Positions 41,844 through 50,734 of a stretch of DNA of 64,000 nucleotides are shown piece after piece. The stretch spans positions 1-64,000 of the forward strand of contig DATJAL010000052.1 in NCBI GenBank assembly GCA_035516255.1, in the 5' to 3' direction. Source of the stretch: Chitinivibrionales bacterium (GTDB lineage Bacteria > Fibrobacterota > Chitinivibrionia > Chitinivibrionales > FEN-1185). Position 1 is the stretch's first letter; every line of letters starts with the position of its first letter. Under the pieces are notes generated by a model, which was not told the DNA's origin, ran no database searches, and saw nothing but the letters and a program-made list of their open reading frames with translations. A program made the position numbers and the translations under genes.

Positions 41844-42062
41844 ATGGCAAACGGTTTGCAGGAGTACATGGAAGCGGAAATCAACGTGATGCTTCAGGAA
41901 ATTGGGCCGTGCGACAATACCGAGTCGAAGTTTTTCACGGAACAGGCAATAGCGTGGATACAGAAAAACGCCGCCGGTTTCAGAATGAAGTGGGACAAGA
42001 AAAACGGGAAGATCGTCAAACGAACAAAAAAGCGGCCGGCTGAAAAACATGACGTGGAATGA
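41844..42062 (+). CDS. Small ORF within the dcw cluster (72 aa), hypothetical
   Basis: A 72-residue frame starting at ATG 41844 after a GGGGGA site and overlapping the murE start by 14 bases, the same tight packing as its neighbours, which argues it is real. It has one Cys in EIGPCDNTESKFF, then a run that becomes very Lys-rich (MKWDKKNGKIVKRTKKRPAE). No membrane segment. I know of no standard dcw gene of this size in this position. Its role cannot be told from sequence. Confidence 0.6.
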   Translation: MANGLQEYMEAEINVMLQEIGPCDNTESKFFTEQAIAWIQKNAAGFRMKWDKKNGKIVKRTKKRPAEKHDVE

Positions 42063-43521
42063 TCTGACAAAGCAGCTCGAGGTGCGCCAAAGCGGCGGCG
42101 GCCAAAACCCGGTTCTCACCGGCGTCACCTGCGATTCGCGCACCGCCGGGCCGGGCTCGCTGTATGTGAGTATTCAGGGCTTCAAGGTGAATGGCGACGC
42201 GTTCATTAAGAGTGCCGTTGACAAAGGCGCAAGCGCGGTGCTGTCGGAGAACCCGCAGCCGGCCTGTCCCGTGGCGTGGGCGCAGGTGCCGAGCGCGCGC
42301 CGCGCGCTCGGCCTTGCGAGCAGGGCGGTGTACGGCATCGACATGGCGAAAATCAGGAGCGTGGGCGTGACCGGTACCAACGGCAAGACCACCACCGCGC
42401 ACCTGCTGCAGACGCTGCTTCAGCTCGTTCACGGTAACGACGCCGTATGGATGTTCGGAACAATCAAATATTATGAGGCCGGCAAGACCGCGGCCGCGCA
42501 CAATACCACGCCCGAGGCGGTTGAAATTTTCCGCGACATCGCGGCCGCGGAAAAAAAGCCGGCGGCGATCGTGATGGAGGTGTCGTCGCATTCGCTGGCG
42601 CTCCACCGGGTTGCCGGGCTGGCATTCGACTGCGGGCTGTTCACGAACCTCACGCAGGACCATCTGGATTTTCACGCGTCAATGGAAGAATATTATCATG
42701 CGAAAAAAATGCTTTTCACCGAATACCTGAAACCCGGCGGCAGGGCCGTGATCAACACCGACGACCCGTACGGGCAGCGACTGGCCAGGGAGCTTGCGGG
42801 AAACCCCCTGGTGACCTTCGGCAGGAACGAAGCGGCCGACGTGCGCATCGTTGACTGGCAATGCGGGTGGGGCGCCACGACCGTCACGCTGAGCTTGAAG
42901 GGACGGCGCGAAATTCTCACCTCAAGGCTCGCCGGGTTCTTCAACGTTTACAACATGACCGCGCTCGCGGCAGCGGCAACGGCGCTCGGCATCGGCATGG
43001 ATACGGTGCGGCGCTGCTGCGAGGCTGTGGAGACCGTTCCCGGCCGCATGGACCGCGTGCCGCTCGACGCCCCGTTTTCGGTGTTCGTGGACTACGCGCA
43101 CACGCCCGACGCGCTTGTCAACGTGCTTTCCACGGTGAAGAAGATCGGCGCGGGCAGGCTCATCTGCGTGTTCGGCTGCGGCGGCGACCGGGACAAAACC
43201 AAGCGTGCACTCATGGGGCGGGCGGTGGCTGAAAACGCCGACGAGGCCGTGGTGACGTCGGATAACCCGCGCAGCGAAGATCCGCAGGCAATCGTGCGCG
43301 ACATCTTGAGGGGCATCCCGCTCGATTTCCCTCACACGGCTATTGTTGACAGGAGAGAAGCGATACGCAAGGCGCTTTCCATGGCCCGGCCGGGCGACTG
43401 CGTGGTGGTTGCGGGCAAGGGCCACGAGGACTATCAGGAGATAAAGGGCGTTCGCCATCATTTTGACGACCGGGAAGAAGTGATAAAGGCTTTTTCGGAG
43501 GCGAAGGCGCATGCGCGTTGA
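42049..43521 (+). CDS. murE: UDP-MurNAc-L-Ala-D-Glu ligase adding the third residue (meso-DAP type)
   Basis: Cytoplasmic Mur ligase that adds the third stem-peptide amino acid. The ATP loop is GVTGTNGKTTTAHLLQTL near residues 103-120. The specificity motif DNPR in SDNPRSEDP near 405 marks meso-diaminopimelate use, as in most Gram-negative bacteria; lysine-type enzymes have a different loop. VMEVSSHSLALHRV, FVDYAHTPDALVN and VVAGKGHEDYQE are further family signatures, and KHDVE of the small upstream ORF overlaps the start. Length 490 is normal. Its stop lies 11 bases inside the next gene. Confidence 0.96.
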   Translation: MTWNDLTKQLEVRQSGGGQNPVLTGVTCDSRTAGPGSLYVSIQGFKVNGDAFIKSAVDKGASAVLSENPQPACPVAWAQVPSARRALGLASRAVYGIDMAKIRSVGVTGTNGKTTTAHLLQTLLQLVHGNDAVWMFGTIKYYEAGKTAAAHNTTPEAVEIFRDIAAAEKKPAAIVMEVSSHSLALHRVAGLAFDCGLFTNLTQDHLDFHASMEEYYHAKKMLFTEYLKPGGRAVINTDDPYGQRLARELAGNPLVTFGRNEAADVRIVDWQCGWGATTVTLSLKGRREILTSRLAGFFNVYNMTALAAAATALGIGMDTVRRCCEAVETVPGRMDRVPLDAPFSVFVDYAHTPDALVNVLSTVKKIGAGRLICVFGCGGDRDKTKRALMGRAVAENADEAVVTSDNPRSEDPQAIVRDILRGIPLDFPHTAIVDRREAIRKALSMARPGDCVVVAGKGHEDYQEIKGVRHHFDDREEVIKAFSEAKAHAR

Positions 43522-46309
43522 GGCAAAAAAGGCGGGCGCCGGGCTTACGCTCGGCCGGTTCGCCGACTACAGCGGCGGAACATCGCGGTTTTCCCCGCAT
43601 GAGCGGGCGAAACGTATCAGCGCCGTGTGCAACGATTCGCGCAAAATCCAAAAGGGCGATGTGTTTGTCGCCCTCGAAACGGAAAGCGACGACGGGCACA
43701 AGTACGTGAAGAGCGCGCTTGACCACGGCGCAACGGCGGCCCTGGTATCGAAAAAGAAGTTCGGCTTGTTTTCGGACGCGGAAAAGGCAAAGTGCATCGT
43801 GGTCAATGACCCGCTCGCGGCGCTGCAGCGCGCGGCGTCAAAGTATCGCGCGACGCTCGGGTGCAAAATGGTGGGTATCACGGGAAGCAGCGGCAAGACA
43901 ACGGCGCGCGCCTTTATTTCGTCCGTGCTCAAGCAGACGCAGACGGTTTCCGAAACGCGCGGCAACCTCAACAACCACATCGGCGTGCCGCTCTGCGTGC
44001 TCGGCTTTACCGGCAAAGAAACGGCCGGCGTCCTCGAAATGGGGGCCAACCACCACAGGGAAATCCACGTGCTCTCGAGCATCGTGCGGCCGGACATCGG
44101 CGTGATCATGAACATCGGCTACGCGCACATCGGGTATTTCGGCTCGCTTGACAACATCGCAAAGGCGAAGTTCGAGATCGCCGACGGCATGAAAAAAAAC
44201 GGCGTGCTCGTGCTGAACGGCGACGATCCGCTGCTCGTGAAAAAAGGGAAAAAGGCGAAAATGAACGTGGTGTATTTCGGCATGGCAAAGCACTGCCAAG
44301 TGCGCGCGAGCGACGTGCGGCTCACCGCCGAAAGGCACGCGCGGTTCACTGTTGATAAAGAAGAATTCGAACTGCCCATGCCCGGAGCGCATTTCATATA
44401 CGCGGCGCTTGCCGCAATCGCCGTGGGACGGCAGTTCGGCGTGGGCGCCTATGCGATGCGCGCGGCGTTTTCGGCCATGAAACCGGAGCCCCTGCGCGGC
44501 ACCATCGAGGAAAAAGCGGGAAAAACGTTCATTGTTGACTGCTACAACGCAAACCCGTCGTCAATGAAAAGCGGCATAGACCTGCTCGTCGCGGTGGCCG
44601 GTAAAAAACCGAAAGTGGCGATCGTGGGCGACATGCTGGAGCTGGGAAAATACTCGTCACGGCTGCACGCGGCGCTCGGCCGGCAGCTTGCCGCCGCGGG
44701 CGTCGACCGCATCATTGCTATTGGGGAATTTGCGCAGACCGTGGCCAAAGCCGCGGCAGCGGGCGGCGTGAAACAGAAAAATATCCTTACCGCCAAAACC
44801 AGCGAAGCCGCCGTGGCGTCCGCAAAGGCGATGCTCAAGCCGGGCGACACCGTGCTGCTCAAGGGCTCGCGCGGCATACATCTCGAGACCGTGTATCAGG
44901 GACTTGACGCGGCGGCCATGTCGGTGAAATCATTGTCCCTTCCCAAGTCGTACCTACCGAAGCGCGCGGCAATCATCGGCGCGGCCCGAAGCGGCATCGG
45001 CGCGGCGAAATTCCTGATGCGCAAGGGCGTGGAGGTGTTCATCAGCGACATCTGTGCACGGGAAAAGCTCGACAAGCTGCTTGCCTCAGCCGGCCTTGAC
45101 GGCATCGGCCGCGAAGGGGGCAGGCACAGCGACCTGGTGCTCGCGAACGACGTCGTCATCCTGTCGCCCGGCGTTCCGTCGGACCTCCCGATCCTCACGG
45201 AGGCAAAACGCCGCGGCATTCCGGTGTGGTCGGAGATCGAGCTTGCCTACCGGTTCACCGACGCGCAATTCCTCGCCGTCACCGGGTCAACGGGAAAAAG
45301 CACCACCACGAGCCTGCTCGGTGCCGCTTTGGAGGCCGCGGGCAGAAAATACGCGGTGGCGGGGAACATAGGAATCCCGCTTGTCAATGCCGTGGAAGGG
45401 CTGTCTTCCGACGCATTGGTGGCGGCCGAGATTTCGAGCTTCCAGCTCGAGAACATCGATTTGTTCAGGCCCAAGGCCGCCGCCGTGCTCAACCTCATGA
45501 AAAACCATCTTGACAGGTACGAAAGTGAAGAGGCCTACTACAACGCCAAGAAGCAGATCGCCCGCAACTTCACCTTCGACAACCTGCTGGTGCTTAACTC
45601 TCGCGACGCGCGCCTCGTGGCATGGGCGCACGAGATGATCGTGAAGACCAACGTTTGCTTTTTCGGCGCGCCCGCCGAGGGCCGCGACTGCGTGTGGCAT
45701 GAAAACGGCGTGATGTGGGCGCGCTTCGGCGACAAGGCCCGCGCCCTGTTCCGGGTGACCGACATGTTCCTGAGCGGGCCGCACAACTACGACAACGCCT
45801 GCGCCGCGGCCGCGCTCGCGATCGCCGCCGGCATCGACGACAAGGCGATCGCTTCCGGCATCTGCGCCTTCAAGGGGCTGCCGCACCGGCTCGAATACGT
45901 CGGCGAGGTGAGCGGCGTGAAATACTACAACGATTCCAAGGCGACCACGGCCGAGTCGGTGCAAAGCGCCGTGACCGCGTTCGGCCGCAACGTGCACCTG
46001 ATCGCGGGCGGCCGCGACAAGGGCTGCGATTTTTCTATTGTCAAGGATGCGATCAAAATGAACACGCGGGGCGTGTACCTGATCGGCGAGGCCGCCGGCC
46101 GCATGGCGGCCGAATGGAAGGGACTCACGCGGATCGCCGTGTTTAAATCGCTTGAAGCGGCCATGCGCGGCGCGAAAAACAACGCCCGGCCCGGCGACGT
46201 GGTGGTGCTGTCGCCCGGATGTTCGAGCTTCGACATGTTCGACAACTTCGAGCACCGCGGACAGGTGTTCGCGTCGCTCGTGCGCAAACTGAAAGGGGAG
46301 GCACGGTGA
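43511..46309 (+). CDS. murF-murD: Fused MurF-MurD bifunctional Mur ligase
   Basis: One 932-residue frame holds two complete Mur ligases. Residues 1 to about 465 are MurF (adds D-Ala-D-Ala): ATP loop GITGSSGKTTARAF at 122-135, ETRGNLNNHIGVPLC, VDCYNANPSSMKSGID and LKGSRGIHLE. A linker of about 20 residues follows. From about 483 MurD (adds D-Glu) begins: AAIIGAARSGIGAAKF, ATP loop VTGSTGKSTTTSLL near 591, AGNIGIPL, AAEISSFQLE, NLMKNHLDRY, and the last-domain YYNDSKATTAESVQSA. No stop, frameshift or spare start is seen at the join. In the common order mraY lies between these genes; it is not here. Confidence 0.9.
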   Translation: MRVEAKKAGAGLTLGRFADYSGGTSRFSPHERAKRISAVCNDSRKIQKGDVFVALETESDDGHKYVKSALDHGATAALVSKKKFGLFSDAEKAKCIVVNDPLAALQRAASKYRATLGCKMVGITGSSGKTTARAFISSVLKQTQTVSETRGNLNNHIGVPLCVLGFTGKETAGVLEMGANHHREIHVLSSIVRPDIGVIMNIGYAHIGYFGSLDNIAKAKFEIADGMKKNGVLVLNGDDPLLVKKGKKAKMNVVYFGMAKHCQVRASDVRLTAERHARFTVDKEEFELPMPGAHFIYAALAAIAVGRQFGVGAYAMRAAFSAMKPEPLRGTIEEKAGKTFIVDCYNANPSSMKSGIDLLVAVAGKKPKVAIVGDMLELGKYSSRLHAALGRQLAAAGVDRIIAIGEFAQTVAKAAAAGGVKQKNILTAKTSEAAVASAKAMLKPGDTVLLKGSRGIHLETVYQGLDAAAMSVKSLSLPKSYLPKRAAIIGAARSGIGAAKFLMRKGVEVFISDICAREKLDKLLASAGLDGIGREGGRHSDLVLANDVVILSPGVPSDLPILTEAKRRGIPVWSEIELAYRFTDAQFLAVTGSTGKSTTTSLLGAALEAAGRKYAVAGNIGIPLVNAVEGLSSDALVAAEISSFQLENIDLFRPKAAAVLNLMKNHLDRYESEEAYYNAKKQIARNFTFDNLLVLNSRDARLVAWAHEMIVKTNVCFFGAPAEGRDCVWHENGVMWARFGDKARALFRVTDMFLSGPHNYDNACAAAALAIAAGIDDKAIASGICAFKGLPHRLEYVGEVSGVKYYNDSKATTAESVQSAVTAFGRNVHLIAGGRDKGCDFSIVKDAIKMNTRGVYLIGEAAGRMAAEWKGLTRIAVFKSLEAAMRGAKNNARPGDVVVLSPGCSSFDMFDNFEHRGQVFASLVRKLKGEAR

Positions 46310-47454
46310 ACGGCAAGCTGTCGCGCATCGACCTGGGATTGTTCATCGCCACGCTCGTGATGGTCGGCCTGAGCATCGTGATGGTGTACAGCTCGTCGTT
46401 CGCGCTCGCGCAAAGCAAGTTCGGCGGCTCGGATTTCTTCCTCGCGCGCCAGCTCGTGCGCGCCGGGCTGGCCCTGGCGTGCTTTATGGTATTTATCAAC
46501 GTTGACTACCATTTCTGGGGACGCCACAGCACCGGCGCATACTTCGGCGTTATCGCGCTTTTGCTGTTCGTGCTCGTGGCGCCGGCCGCAAGGGCGATCC
46601 ACGGCGCGCGTAGATGGATTTCCCTCGGGTTCATCCAGTTCCAGGTTTCGGAGCTCGCGCTTCTCGTTCTGGTCATCCTGCTCGCGGCGCAGCTTTCTCG
46701 GGCGGGCGAGGAAATAAAAGACACCAAGAAGCTCGCGGGCTTTCTCGTGAAAATAGGGGTCGTGTGCGGCCTTATCGGGCTGGAGCCCAATTTTTCGACC
46801 GCAGCGTTGGTGGCGGCCATCGGTGTCGTGCTGCTGTTCGTGGCAGGCGCCCGCATCTCGCACCTAGCGGCGCTGATTGGCGCGGCGATTCCGTTCGGCG
46901 TTCTCGCGGCATTCGGCGCCGGATACCGCAGGCACAGGATTTTCGCTTTTTTGCACACGCCCGGCCATTCCGGCGATGTGGGGTACCAGGCGTATCAGGC
47001 GCTCATCGGGCTCGGCAACGGCGGCTTGTTCGGCGTGGGCATTGGCCAGGGCGATCAGAAATATTTCTACCTGCCCGAGCCGCACACCGATTTCGTGTTC
47101 TCGATACTTGGCGAGGAAATCGGGTTCGTGGGACTTCTTCTCGTTCTCCTGCTGTTCGCGTTCATCGTTTACTGCGGAATAAAAATCGCGCTGTCCGCGC
47201 CCGACACCATGGGACGGCTCATGGCGTTCGGGTTCACGTTCGTGTGCGCGATTTACGCGCTGATACACGCGGCCGTCAACGTGGGGCTCGTGCCCACCAC
47301 CGGCATCCCGCTGCCGTTTTTAAGCTACGGCGGCATGAGCCTGGTATTCACCGTGGGCAGCATGGGCATCCTGCTCAACATTTCGAGCCAGGGGCGGCGT
47401 ATGCCGTCGATGCAGTTCAGGAAAATTCACCATCTGCCGCGGGACAGGGGTTAA
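46306..47454 (+). CDS. ftsW: FtsW, SEDS-family peptidoglycan glycosyltransferase
   Basis: Septal glycan polymerase working with FtsI. The start is a GTG at 46306 with a GGGGAGG site, overlapping the murF-murD stop by 4 bases; the longer frame to 46219 is antisense-like. About ten membrane helices; SEDS motifs are RRWISLGFIQFQVSELALLV (loop before the catalytic helix), PEPHTDFVFSILGEEIGFVG (carrying the essential Asp/Glu in loop 4) and VPTTGIPLPFLSYGGMSLVF. 382 residues is the usual size. The position between murD and murG is standard. Confidence 0.95.
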   Translation: MNGKLSRIDLGLFIATLVMVGLSIVMVYSSSFALAQSKFGGSDFFLARQLVRAGLALACFMVFINVDYHFWGRHSTGAYFGVIALLLFVLVAPAARAIHGARRWISLGFIQFQVSELALLVLVILLAAQLSRAGEEIKDTKKLAGFLVKIGVVCGLIGLEPNFSTAALVAAIGVVLLFVAGARISHLAALIGAAIPFGVLAAFGAGYRRHRIFAFLHTPGHSGDVGYQAYQALIGLGNGGLFGVGIGQGDQKYFYLPEPHTDFVFSILGEEIGFVGLLLVLLLFAFIVYCGIKIALSAPDTMGRLMAFGFTFVCAIYALIHAAVNVGLVPTTGIPLPFLSYGGMSLVFTVGSMGILLNISSQGRRMPSMQFRKIHHLPRDRG

Positions 47455-47455
47455 T

Positions 47456-48553
47456 ATGGCGGGTGTTTCGAATCCATTGATCGTGATTGCCGCGGGCGGC
47501 ACGGGCGGCCACATTTTTCCCGCGCTGTCGGTTGCGCTCGAGCTGCGCAGCCGCATGCCGGCTGCGTCGCTTTTGTGGATCGGAACGAGCCGCAGCCGCG
47601 AGAAGGAACTGTGCGAGCGGAACGCAATACCGTTGGAGATTCTTGACGTGGAAGGAATTCGGCGCGCATTGAGCCTGAGCGTTTTGCGCGCAACTGTCCG
47701 GTTTGTCAATGCATTTTGTACAATGGTTAAGCGGTTCGGAAAAAACAGGCCGTCCGCGGTCGTGGCGTTCGGCGGCTACGTGTGCGCTCCCGTGCTGAGC
47801 GCGGCGCGGCTGCGGCGCGTACCGTATTACCTGCAGGAACAGAACACCATTCCCGGCCTTGTCAACCGGCTGTTTGCGCGCAATGCGGCCGGGGTGTTCC
47901 TCGGGTTCCCGCTTGCGGGAAAGCGCCGGTTGGCCGGCATTGGCGAGGTTACCGGAACGCCGGTGCGGTCCGGCGAAAAATCATATGACGGATTCAACTA
48001 TCCGGATGGCTTTGACAAAACGAGAAAGGCCATTCTGGTATGCGGCGGCAGCCAGGGCGCGCAGAGCATGAACGCGCTGCTTGCCGCCCCGGTCGACAAA
48101 TGGGCCACAGCCGGCACGCAGGTGGTGTGGCAGACCGGCGGCCCGTCGTTTGCCGGACTGTCGGAGCGTTTCAAACGGCGGAAAGGAATGTTTTTGTTCC
48201 CCACGATAACGGATCTGTACCCATTTTACGCGGCCGCGAAGCTGGTGATCGGCCGCGCCGGCGCATCGACGCTCTCCGAGGTGAGTTACTTCGGCCTGCC
48301 GTGCGTGCTCATCCCGCTGCCGTGGGCTGCCGAAAACCACCAATGGGTCAACGCCGGTCTGGTGGAGGCGCAGGGATGGGGGATTCGCGTGGCGCAGGAC
48401 GATGCGTGCGGCGCGAACGTGGAAAAAGCCGTGGAGACGATATTGTCAAATGAGAAGACGTTTAACACGATGCGCATGAGGGCGCTCGACAACAGCCCGG
48501 CCGACGCGGCGAAAAAAATCGCCATGGCGCTTTCGAAAGACCTGGGACTATGA
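47456..48553 (+). CDS. murG: UDP-GlcNAc:lipid I N-acetylglucosaminyltransferase
   Basis: Makes lipid II on the inner face of the cytoplasmic membrane. The two GT-B halves are visible: the glycine-rich IVIAAGGTGGHIFPALS at the start, YLQEQNTIPGLVNRLFA in the acceptor side, then the second half with VCGGSQGAQSMNALLA and the UDP-GlcNAc site GRAGASTLSEVSYFGLPCVL. PLPWAAENHQWVNAGLV closes the donor site. It needs lipid I from MraY, whose gene is missing here. The start ATG directly follows the ftsW stop, and the gene overlaps murC by 4 bases. Confidence 0.96.
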   Translation: MAGVSNPLIVIAAGGTGGHIFPALSVALELRSRMPAASLLWIGTSRSREKELCERNAIPLEILDVEGIRRALSLSVLRATVRFVNAFCTMVKRFGKNRPSAVVAFGGYVCAPVLSAARLRRVPYYLQEQNTIPGLVNRLFARNAAGVFLGFPLAGKRRLAGIGEVTGTPVRSGEKSYDGFNYPDGFDKTRKAILVCGGSQGAQSMNALLAAPVDKWATAGTQVVWQTGGPSFAGLSERFKRRKGMFLFPTITDLYPFYAAAKLVIGRAGASTLSEVSYFGLPCVLIPLPWAAENHQWVNAGLVEAQGWGIRVAQDDACGANVEKAVETILSNEKTFNTMRMRALDNSPADAAKKIAMALSKDLGL

Positions 48554-49929
48554 TGCTGCTCAACCAGAGGAAAACGGTTCATTTTATCGGCATCGGCGGC
48601 GTGGGCATGAGCGGCCTTGCCGAGTTTCTGCGCACGGCCGGCTACACCGTGACCGGCAGCGACCGCCAGTCGTCCGCGATCACGAAACGCCTCGAATCGC
48701 TGGGCATTACAATTCAGTACGGCCATGCACCGAACCTGGTGCGCGACGCGCACCTCGTGGTGTATTCGAGCGCGATAAAAGAAGAAAACCCGGAACGGGC
48801 GTACGCGCGCGACAATAAAATTCCGGTCATGCGGCGCGCAGAGATGCTCGGCGAGCTCATGCGCATGAAGTTTTCCATCGCAGTTGCGGGAACGCACGGC
48901 AAGACAACGACCACGTCGCTCATCGGGCAGATTTTCAACGATGCGGGCATGACGCCGACGGTGATCGTGGGCGGGATCCTGCGGCGCTACGACACCAACG
49001 CGCTCGTCGGAAAGGGAGACATCCTGGTGGCGGAGGCGGACGAATTCGACCGGTCGTTTCTGAAAATGTTCCCGTCGGTCGCGGTGGTGACCAACATCGA
49101 GGCCGACCATCTGGATTGCTATTCAGGAATTGACGACATAAAGGCGGCATTTCTGCAGTTCGCCAACCTCGTGCCGTTTTACGGCGCGCTGGTCGCCTGC
49201 GCCGACGAGCCCGGCGTGCGCGAGCTGCTGGCGGGCTACGCGAAGACGGCGATCACCTACGGCGTGTCGCGGGAGGCCGATTATTCGGGCCGGGACATAC
49301 GGTTTACAGGAGGGAAAACTGCCTTCACGGTCCATAAGAAGGCGCAGAAACTGGGCGTCCTCGAGCTCACCATTCCGGGGCTCCACAATGTCAAGAATGC
49401 GCTTGCCGCATGCGCGGTGGCGACCGAGCTCGGGGTTGATTTTGGCAAAATCGCCAGGAGCCTCGCCGGTTTCGGCGGGATCAAACGGCGTTTCGAAATA
49501 GTGGGGCAAAAGGCGGGCGTCACCGTGATCGACGATTACGCGCACCATCCGAGCGAAATCGCGGCGACCATCGCGGCGGCGCGCAGCGCCGGCTACAGGC
49601 GCGTCGTGGCGGTGTTCCAGCCGCACCTGTACACGCGAACGCGCGACTTTCTCGACGGGTTCGCGCAGGCGCTGTGCGCCGCCGACGAACTCGTGGTCAC
49701 CGCGATTTACCAGTCGCGCGAGGAGCCGATTGCGGGCGTCAACAGCCTCGCCATCGTGGAAAAAGCGAAAAAACTCGGGCATGCCCATGCCCGTTACATA
49801 GAGAAAAAGGCCGACATCGCGGCGCAGCTCGCGCCTGAGTGCAGGGCGGGCGACGCGGTGGTGGTCATGGGCGCGGGCGACATCAATAAGATATGCAAAG
49901 ACATACTCTCGGGGATCCGGGATGCATAA
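48550..49929 (+). CDS. murC: UDP-N-acetylmuramate-L-alanine ligase
   Basis: First Mur ligase of the stem peptide. The N-terminal Rossmann-like part is VHFIGIGGVGMSGLAEFL, the ATP loop is AVAGTHGKTTTTSLIGQI near residue 115, and EADEFDRSFL with VTNIEADHLDCYSG lies at the metal site. The C-terminal domain has IDDYAHHPSEIAATI and VFQPHLYTRTRDFLDGFA. Length 459 is normal and no MurB or Ddl gene follows, unlike E. coli. The last 8 bases overlap ftsQ. Confidence 0.96.
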   Translation: MMLLNQRKTVHFIGIGGVGMSGLAEFLRTAGYTVTGSDRQSSAITKRLESLGITIQYGHAPNLVRDAHLVVYSSAIKEENPERAYARDNKIPVMRRAEMLGELMRMKFSIAVAGTHGKTTTTSLIGQIFNDAGMTPTVIVGGILRRYDTNALVGKGDILVAEADEFDRSFLKMFPSVAVVTNIEADHLDCYSGIDDIKAAFLQFANLVPFYGALVACADEPGVRELLAGYAKTAITYGVSREADYSGRDIRFTGGKTAFTVHKKAQKLGVLELTIPGLHNVKNALAACAVATELGVDFGKIARSLAGFGGIKRRFEIVGQKAGVTVIDDYAHHPSEIAATIAAARSAGYRRVVAVFQPHLYTRTRDFLDGFAQALCAADELVVTAIYQSREEPIAGVNSLAIVEKAKKLGHAHARYIEKKADIAAQLAPECRAGDAVVVMGAGDINKICKDILSGIRDA

Positions 49930-50734
49930 GCATGTCGGTGCGAACCGGCGCAGAAGGCACGGTGAAAAACGCCGCGCGGCCGGCCGGGCCATGGGAAAAG
50001 CGGCGTCCGGGCTTTTGCGATACGCGAAGTTCGCCGTCATCGCGCTCCTGGTGTGCGGCGGCGGCATTGTCGCGGCGGTAAAGCTCGTGCCGTGGGTCAA
50101 CCGCTCCTCGCTGTTCACGGTGAAGACCATCGTGGTTGACGGGTGCGTGCGCGTTGACAAGGCGGAGGCGGTGCGGCTGATCGGCATCGCTCCGGGCATG
50201 CGCATGACGCAGGTGAAGCCCGCCGCGGTGCGGCAGGCGCTCGAGCGAATGCCGTGGGTGCGGCGGGCGCACGTGGCGCGGCGCTTCCCCAGCACCGTGG
50301 CGATCCGCATCGAAGAGCGGCAGCCGATTGCGCTTGTCAATTGCGGCCGCGTGAAATACCTCGACGCCGACGGTGTGATGCTGCCCTTGTTCGCCGCCAC
50401 GTATTCGAACCTTCCCGTGGTGTCGGGGTTCTGGCCCGACAGCGCGGGGCGGCTCAGCGAGACCGCGCTCTGCCGCGTTAAACAGTTTCTGGCGGACTGC
50501 GAAGCGTCGAACGCGTCGGCGGCGAAGCGCATCTCGCAGGCGGATTTTTCCCTGCCGCGGACCGTAAGGATAACACTCGAGGACGCGCCCGCGGTGATTG
50601 AAATCAACGAGGCTCAGACAGCGGAACTGCTGCGGCGGCTGCAGCAGATCGTGCAGGGCGAACAGAACGCCGCCAGGGGGCTGCCCAAAAGGATCAACCT
50701 GTGCTACGAAAACCTGGCGTACCTGCAATGGTAA
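49922..50734 (+). CDS. ftsQ: FtsQ/DivIB-type cell-division protein
   Basis: Bitopic inner-membrane protein of the divisome. The cytoplasmic N-terminus is short and extremely basic (VGANRRRRHGEKRRAAGRAM). One membrane helix follows (FAVIALLVCGGGIVAAVKLV), then the POTRA domain: FTVKTIVVDGCVRVDKAEAV and LERMPWVRRAHVARRFPSTV with IRIEERQPIALV, as in FtsQ. The beta domain and tail complete 270 residues. FtsQ normally binds FtsL and FtsB. Its position between murC and ftsA is the expected one once murB and ddl are absent. Confidence 0.92.
   Translation: MHKHVGANRRRRHGEKRRAAGRAMGKAASGLLRYAKFAVIALLVCGGGIVAAVKLVPWVNRSSLFTVKTIVVDGCVRVDKAEAVRLIGIAPGMRMTQVKPAAVRQALERMPWVRRAHVARRFPSTVAIRIEERQPIALVNCGRVKYLDADGVMLPLFAATYSNLPVVSGFWPDSAGRLSETALCRVKQFLADCEASNASAAKRISQADFSLPRTVRITLEDAPAVIEINEAQTAELLRRLQQIVQGEQNAARGLPKRINLCYENLAYLQW

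Follow-up and report, generated by a model that had tools for sequence, protein, structure and literature searches.

A predicted bifunctional MurF-MurD fusion encoded in the dcw cluster of a Chitinivibrionales genus

The window, a stretch of 64,000 nucleotides from a Chitinivibrionales (Fibrobacterota) genome, contains a dcw cluster on the forward strand with the gene order ftsI-murE-murF/murD-ftsW-murG-murC. Within this cluster, murF and murD occupy a single open reading frame encoding 932 aa (43511-46309, + strand), as identified from ORF, Pfam, and NCBIfam matches, and the same fusion is found in a second genome, G001. The only stop codon in frame 0 is the terminal one, and the other two frames contain 27 and 17 stops. 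The upstream gene murE (42049-43521, + strand), whose product catalyses the step between those of MurD and MurF, overlaps the start of the fusion by 11 bp, with the fusion ATG at 43511 and the murE stop codon at 43519-43521. Downstream, ftsW (46306-47454, + strand) likely starts at a GTG at 46306, which forms a GTGA overlap with the fusion stop and is preceded by GGGGAGG. Its best match is to TIGR02614 (333 bits, cutoff 337.5), and a longer mechanical ORF starts at 46219. The cluster continues with murG (47456-48553, + strand; TIGR01133) and murC (48550-49929, + strand; TIGR01082). An ftsQ-like gene (window positions 49922-50734) lies directly after murC with neither murB nor ddl between them; many dcw clusters carry murB and ddl between murC and ftsQ. 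The window and families f1, f5, and f7 have murG between ftsW and murC, unlike several genomes of family f3 (L139, L141, L142, L145, and L146), in which no murG match was found at this place and the gene may have moved.

The initial annotation, made from the sequence alone, had described a true fusion of MurF and MurD, 932 residues long and with all catalytic motifs of both ligases, and this description is borne out by profile matches above cutoff for both enzymes in the one frame. The MurF half (43511-44908, + strand; aa 1-466), delimited with the NCBIfam match and an AlphaFold2 model, matches the murF profile TIGR01143 at residues 42-463 (475.6 bits, cutoff 288.6, profile positions 2-416 of 418) and contains the P-loop GSSGKTT at aa 125, NIGYAHIGYFGS at 201, IAKAKFEI at 216, NANPSSM at 346, GDMLELG at 373, and KGSRGIHLE at 451. 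The MurD half (44963-46306, + strand; aa 485-932), delimited with the NCBIfam match, PDB alignments, and an AlphaFold2 model, matches the murD profile TIGR01087 at residues 487-926 (498.2 bits, cutoff 211.95, profile positions 3-441 of 441). Its motifs are the P-loop GSTGKSTTT (592), EISSFQLE (640), NLMKNHLDRY (661), AYYNAKKQ (675), which holds the position of the carbamylated Lys, GLPHRLE (789), NDSKATT (807), and LSPGCSSFDMFDNFEHRG (900). Two Mur_ligase_M and two Mur_ligase_C domains were found in the fusion protein with Pfam.

Near-invariant columns, defined for each half as those at least 97% conserved across about 100 unfused homologues, are retained without exception in the two fused proteins (from the window genome, G000, and from G001), at 21/21 columns in the MurF half and 45/45 in the MurD half. 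The latter include the P-loop, the carbamylated Lys position, and NDSKAT, and alignments to E. coli MurD agree. The halves were aligned and folded separately; a joint alignment of MurF, MurD, and fusion sequences had matched MurD sequences to the MurF half of the fusion. The AlphaFold2 model of the MurF half (pLDDT 93.6) best matches the A. baumannii MurF structure 4qf5 (Z 43.3, 441 residues, 1.9 A), and that of the MurD half (pLDDT 92.1) best matches the E. coli MurD structure 8v8w (Z 41.0, 424 residues, 2.6 A). Together these results indicate that the frame encodes a complete MurF followed by a complete MurD, joined by a short flexible linker, and that each half is a complete three-domain ATP-dependent Mur ligase that should act on its own substrate.

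The asparagines of the HNxxN motif are missing from the MurF half, which reads HFIYAALAA at this place, and we considered and rejected a defect of the fusion as the explanation, since their absence is common to unfused relatives in the order. The HNxxN of many other MurFs is HFxY order-wide (HFIYAAL in the fusion; window positions 44390-44416, aa 294-302), in fused and unfused proteins alike.

The linker (44900-44962, + strand; aa 464-484) was placed using the HMM borders and low pLDDT, with a disordered core at about aa 470-482. Its length by HMM borders, 20-24 residues, agrees with the initial estimate of about 20. Values of pLDDT fall below 50 at residues 470-480 in the model of the MurF half and at 467-473 in that of the MurD half. 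An in-frame ATG (44918-44920, + strand; aa 470) lies at the start site of unfused murD genes and is possibly a relic murD start.

G001, which belongs to the same genus and was assembled separately, encodes the same fusion at 67% identity with no internal stop, such that both of the two genomes compared in this genus are fused. The linkers of G000 and G001 differ in sequence, and that of G001 is longer by 4 codons, yet both are in frame; comparison with a related genome, which had been proposed as a check on the fusion and its linker, supports the fusion. NG86 estimates of dN/dS between the two genomes are 0.28/1.16 for the MurF half, 0.21/0.92 for the MurD half, and 0.69/1.38 for the linker (16 codons). 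On these codon comparisons, both halves are under purifying selection, and the linker is loosely constrained and fast-evolving.

In order to place the fusion among its relatives, 40 Chitinivibrionales genomes were surveyed. The genes are fused in two of them (G000 and G001), and in 33 they are adjacent but unfused, with no mraY between them. The state of the junction is not readable in the other five, including G002, the one further genome of the family, where murD is cut off by the contig end. Five of the 33 unfused pairs (G004, G007, G014, G015, and G032) lie in the same frame with one stop codon between the genes, and the junction in G007, LETVFQGYGG*ARDAVMNKQVPKEYMPK, aligns with LETVYQGLDAAAMSVKSLSLPKSYLPK of the fusion, apart from the stop. 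Because the G007 junction lines up with the fusion linker, loss of a stop codon between in-frame genes is the simplest step and probably produced the fusion. Four states are available for comparison as evolutionary intermediates: mraY between the two genes, genes abutting out of frame, genes abutting in frame with a stop, and genes fused.

Other phyla were searched for the same arrangement. Among 297 Acidobacteriota, surveyed at the default limit, a stop-free joined MurF-MurD frame was found in none. Three further phyla were surveyed at E <= 1e-115 with only joined matches listed, and none was found: those to which a Bacteroidetes MAG (395 genomes), a Clostridiaceae MAG (398 genomes), and a candidate division GN15 (Zixibacteria-type) MAG (132 genomes) belong. 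The sole positive control for these searches comes from Acidobacteriota, whose in-frame pairs, 36% identical, gave joined matches with E values of 1e-162 to 1e-173. In the Acidobacteriota genomes G446 and G368, murF and murD lie in one frame with a stop between them, an independent parallel. The dcw clusters of G446, G368, and G216 (L192, L193, and L194) lack mraY and murG matches, and murF-murD and ftsW-murC are adjacent, a layout that parallels family f3. Long murD frames in Acidobacteriota (G357, G385, G342, G388, and others) were rejected as fusions: the murF match is never in the frame of murD, mraY mostly lies between the two genes, and these are chance open frames. An 857-aa frame over murF (L034/G170) was likewise rejected as a MurE-MurF fusion, the MurE match being in a different frame.

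Described fusions of this pathway include MurE-MurF, MurB-MurC, MurG-MurC, MurC-Ddl, and MraY-MurG (PMC6420597). The closest in kind is MurE-MurF of Bordetella and others (NF008896; PMC6420597), which likewise combines two ATP-dependent Mur ligases, one of them MurF, in one dcw-encoded polypeptide, but which joins neighbouring genes and consecutive steps, whereas here MurF is N-terminal and its partner MurD acts two steps earlier. Tested against NF008896, the fusion scores 446 bits (cutoff 1023), with the best stretch covering the MurF part only (516-957 of 965) and no MurE half ahead of it. MurC-Ddl (NF011171), MurG-MurC, MurB-MurC, and MraY-MurG (PMC6420597) are also fusions of peptidoglycan enzymes, none of which joins MurD; MurG-MurC and MurC-Ddl resemble MurF-MurD in pairing non-consecutive steps. 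MurF is N-terminal in the MurF-alanine racemase fusion (NF008897) as it is here, but its partner there is a racemase and not a ligase, and the fusion scores only 215 bits against a cutoff of 804. The unfused murF-murD pairs of Chitinivibrionales and some Acidobacteriota have the same order and no mraY, and differ in that a stop or frame change separates the genes; those of Acidobacteriota arose independently. Models for MurE-MurF, MurC-Ddl, and MurF-Alr exist in NCBIfam, and none for MurF-MurD was among the matches shown. No description of a MurF-MurD fusion was found in a search of the literature outside subscription journals. As in Mur fusions generally, two peptidoglycan enzymes are encoded in one frame in more than one genome (G000 and G001), and the pairing, which we did not find described, belongs to the known class of fused Mur enzymes, with a narrow distribution.

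In dcw clusters, murD is normally separated from murF by mraY. The window cluster contains no mraY, as had been noted initially, and a search of the whole genome, proposed at the same time for mraY and for separate copies of murF and murD, recovered one MraY-like gene elsewhere and no second copy of either ligase gene. Other close matches to the fusion in this genome are limited to murC, murE, and one distant ligase-like gene. A 467-aa open frame at C52:100551-100985 is weakly similar (29%) to the MurD half and Mur-ligase-like. The MraY-like gene, the only PF00953 gene of the genome, lies at C30:82250-83383 on a contig of 88,912 bases and encodes a protein of 378 aa whose PDB matches are MraY chains only and which contains HHH, GDSGAVGLGG, and NGVNFTDGFD. 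Its score against TIGR00445 is 189.9 bits, 2 bits below the MraY equivalog cutoff of 192.05, and we take the gene as a probable working MraY because murG is present.

In 38 of the 40 Chitinivibrionales genomes, an mraY homologue was detected outside the cluster, in G038 only as a scrap; none was found in G031 and G033, both of which are incomplete. A class I methyltransferase-like gene (G000:C30, L135:7488-9383) adjoins mraY at most of the loci in this order, those of the distant family f7 among them, a neighbourhood not seen in the other Fibrobacterota sampled. Since mraY lies away from the cluster across the order and murF and murD are unfused neighbours in 33 genomes, the displacement of mraY is much older than the fusion, which is confined, as far as seen, to one genus. 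The initial proposal that mraY moved away and the flanking genes merged therefore holds in that mraY is elsewhere and the genes did merge, but it does not hold as one event, given the 33/40 genomes in which the genes are adjacent and unfused.

MurD adds D-Glu onto UDP-MurNAc-L-Ala, MurE then adds a diamino acid, and MurF then adds D-Ala-D-Ala. The two fused activities are thus non-consecutive, as the initial annotation had stated, with MurE acting between them. We hold with good confidence that the frame encodes a bifunctional enzyme, an N-terminal MurF tethered to a C-terminal MurD, which arose through displacement of mraY, abutment of the flanking genes, and loss of a stop codon. Since the genome has no other murF or murD, a cell that makes peptidoglycan would depend on the fusion for both activities. 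A working bifunctional enzyme is very likely. In the proposed sequence of events, mraY would have left its place between the two ligase genes, or been lost from it, ahead of the diversification of the order, and a distant locus would have supplied a divergent MraY; murF and murD would then have abutted, sometimes in the same frame, and the ancestor of the genus would have lost the intervening stop, giving a fusion since kept under purifying selection. The MurF half (fourth ligase step) and the MurD half (second step) would act separately, with free MurE carrying out the step between, and no direct channel between MurD and MurF is expected because the intermediate must leave for MurE. The fusion may provide MurD and MurF in a 1:1 supply, co-localisation with MurE, and probable translational coupling to MurE.

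Separate genes could have been joined in the data by a stop or frameshift missed at the junction, given that the fusion was read from a single MAG and that close relatives have a same-frame stop at this very spot. Such an error of assembly or consensus is very unlikely, since the fusion recurs in the separately assembled G001 with a different in-frame linker, purifying selection, and the same conserved residues, and traces of a stop or frameshift are absent from both genomes. It is also improbable, if less so, that the fusion is made while MurD, or both parts, works separately through an internal start at ATG 44918 or proteolysis of the linker. The position of this ATG at the start site of unfused murD genes and the disordered, exposed linker agree with separate products, but the ATG has no clear Shine-Dalgarno sequence upstream, the G001 linker contains no ATG and only an in-frame GTG near the MurD domain, and a free MurF would require cleavage, as no stop ends MurF.

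In nearly all Fibrobacterota, MraY belongs to a single divergent clade encoded outside the dcw cluster (L105-L134, L148-L161), at least 42% identical to that of the window genome and about 31% identical to the canonical MraY that family f9 (G041, L144:11887-12993) has in place between murF and murD; mraY and murD are both gone from the cluster in the f8 and f10 genomes sampled. This divergence would fit deletion of the cluster mraY after the divergent MraY of another lineage took over, in which case mraY did not move. We regard such a replacement as conceivable but the less probable history: the MraY comparison turned up no donor lineage, and a single Fibrobacterota MraY clade including f9 is not rejected by an AU test (p 0.587), although the tree cannot show common origin either, such that moving over replacement is unproven. 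In a tree built from four concatenated cluster proteins, f9 falls beside the order with moderate support (85), a position that would need two losses of mraY from the cluster or an early two-copy stage. Evidence on Mur assemblies is mixed, and it is doubtful that the fusion, instead of being near-neutral, was selected for building a MurD-MurE-MurF (and MurG) assembly in which precursors are passed on. The overlap of murE with the fusion start is consistent with such an assembly, as are the binding of MurG to MurD, MurE, and MurF in Thermotoga (as cited in PMC6420597) and to the MurE-MurF fusion in B. pertussis (PMC6420597). Conversely, the Mur ligases of M. tuberculosis showed no mutual interaction in a protein-fragment assay (PMC3605390), the active sites in the MurE-MurF fusion of B. 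pertussis are flexible and lie ~35 A from each other (PMC6420597), the linker is fast-evolving, and relatives with the same gene order thrive unfused. A broader idea, which seems unlikely, is that the linkage of steps 2 and 4 with MurE left free reveals a Mur assembly that is advantageous in these bacteria, the fusion having been made possible when mraY was displaced or replaced long ago throughout the phylum. A selected benefit of the fusion is unproven.

The fusion provides a natural setting in which to test whether Mur ligases function as an assembly; in other respects it is an ordinary gene fusion. For researchers working on MraY inhibitors, the divergent, displaced MraY found in most Fibrobacterota may be of interest.
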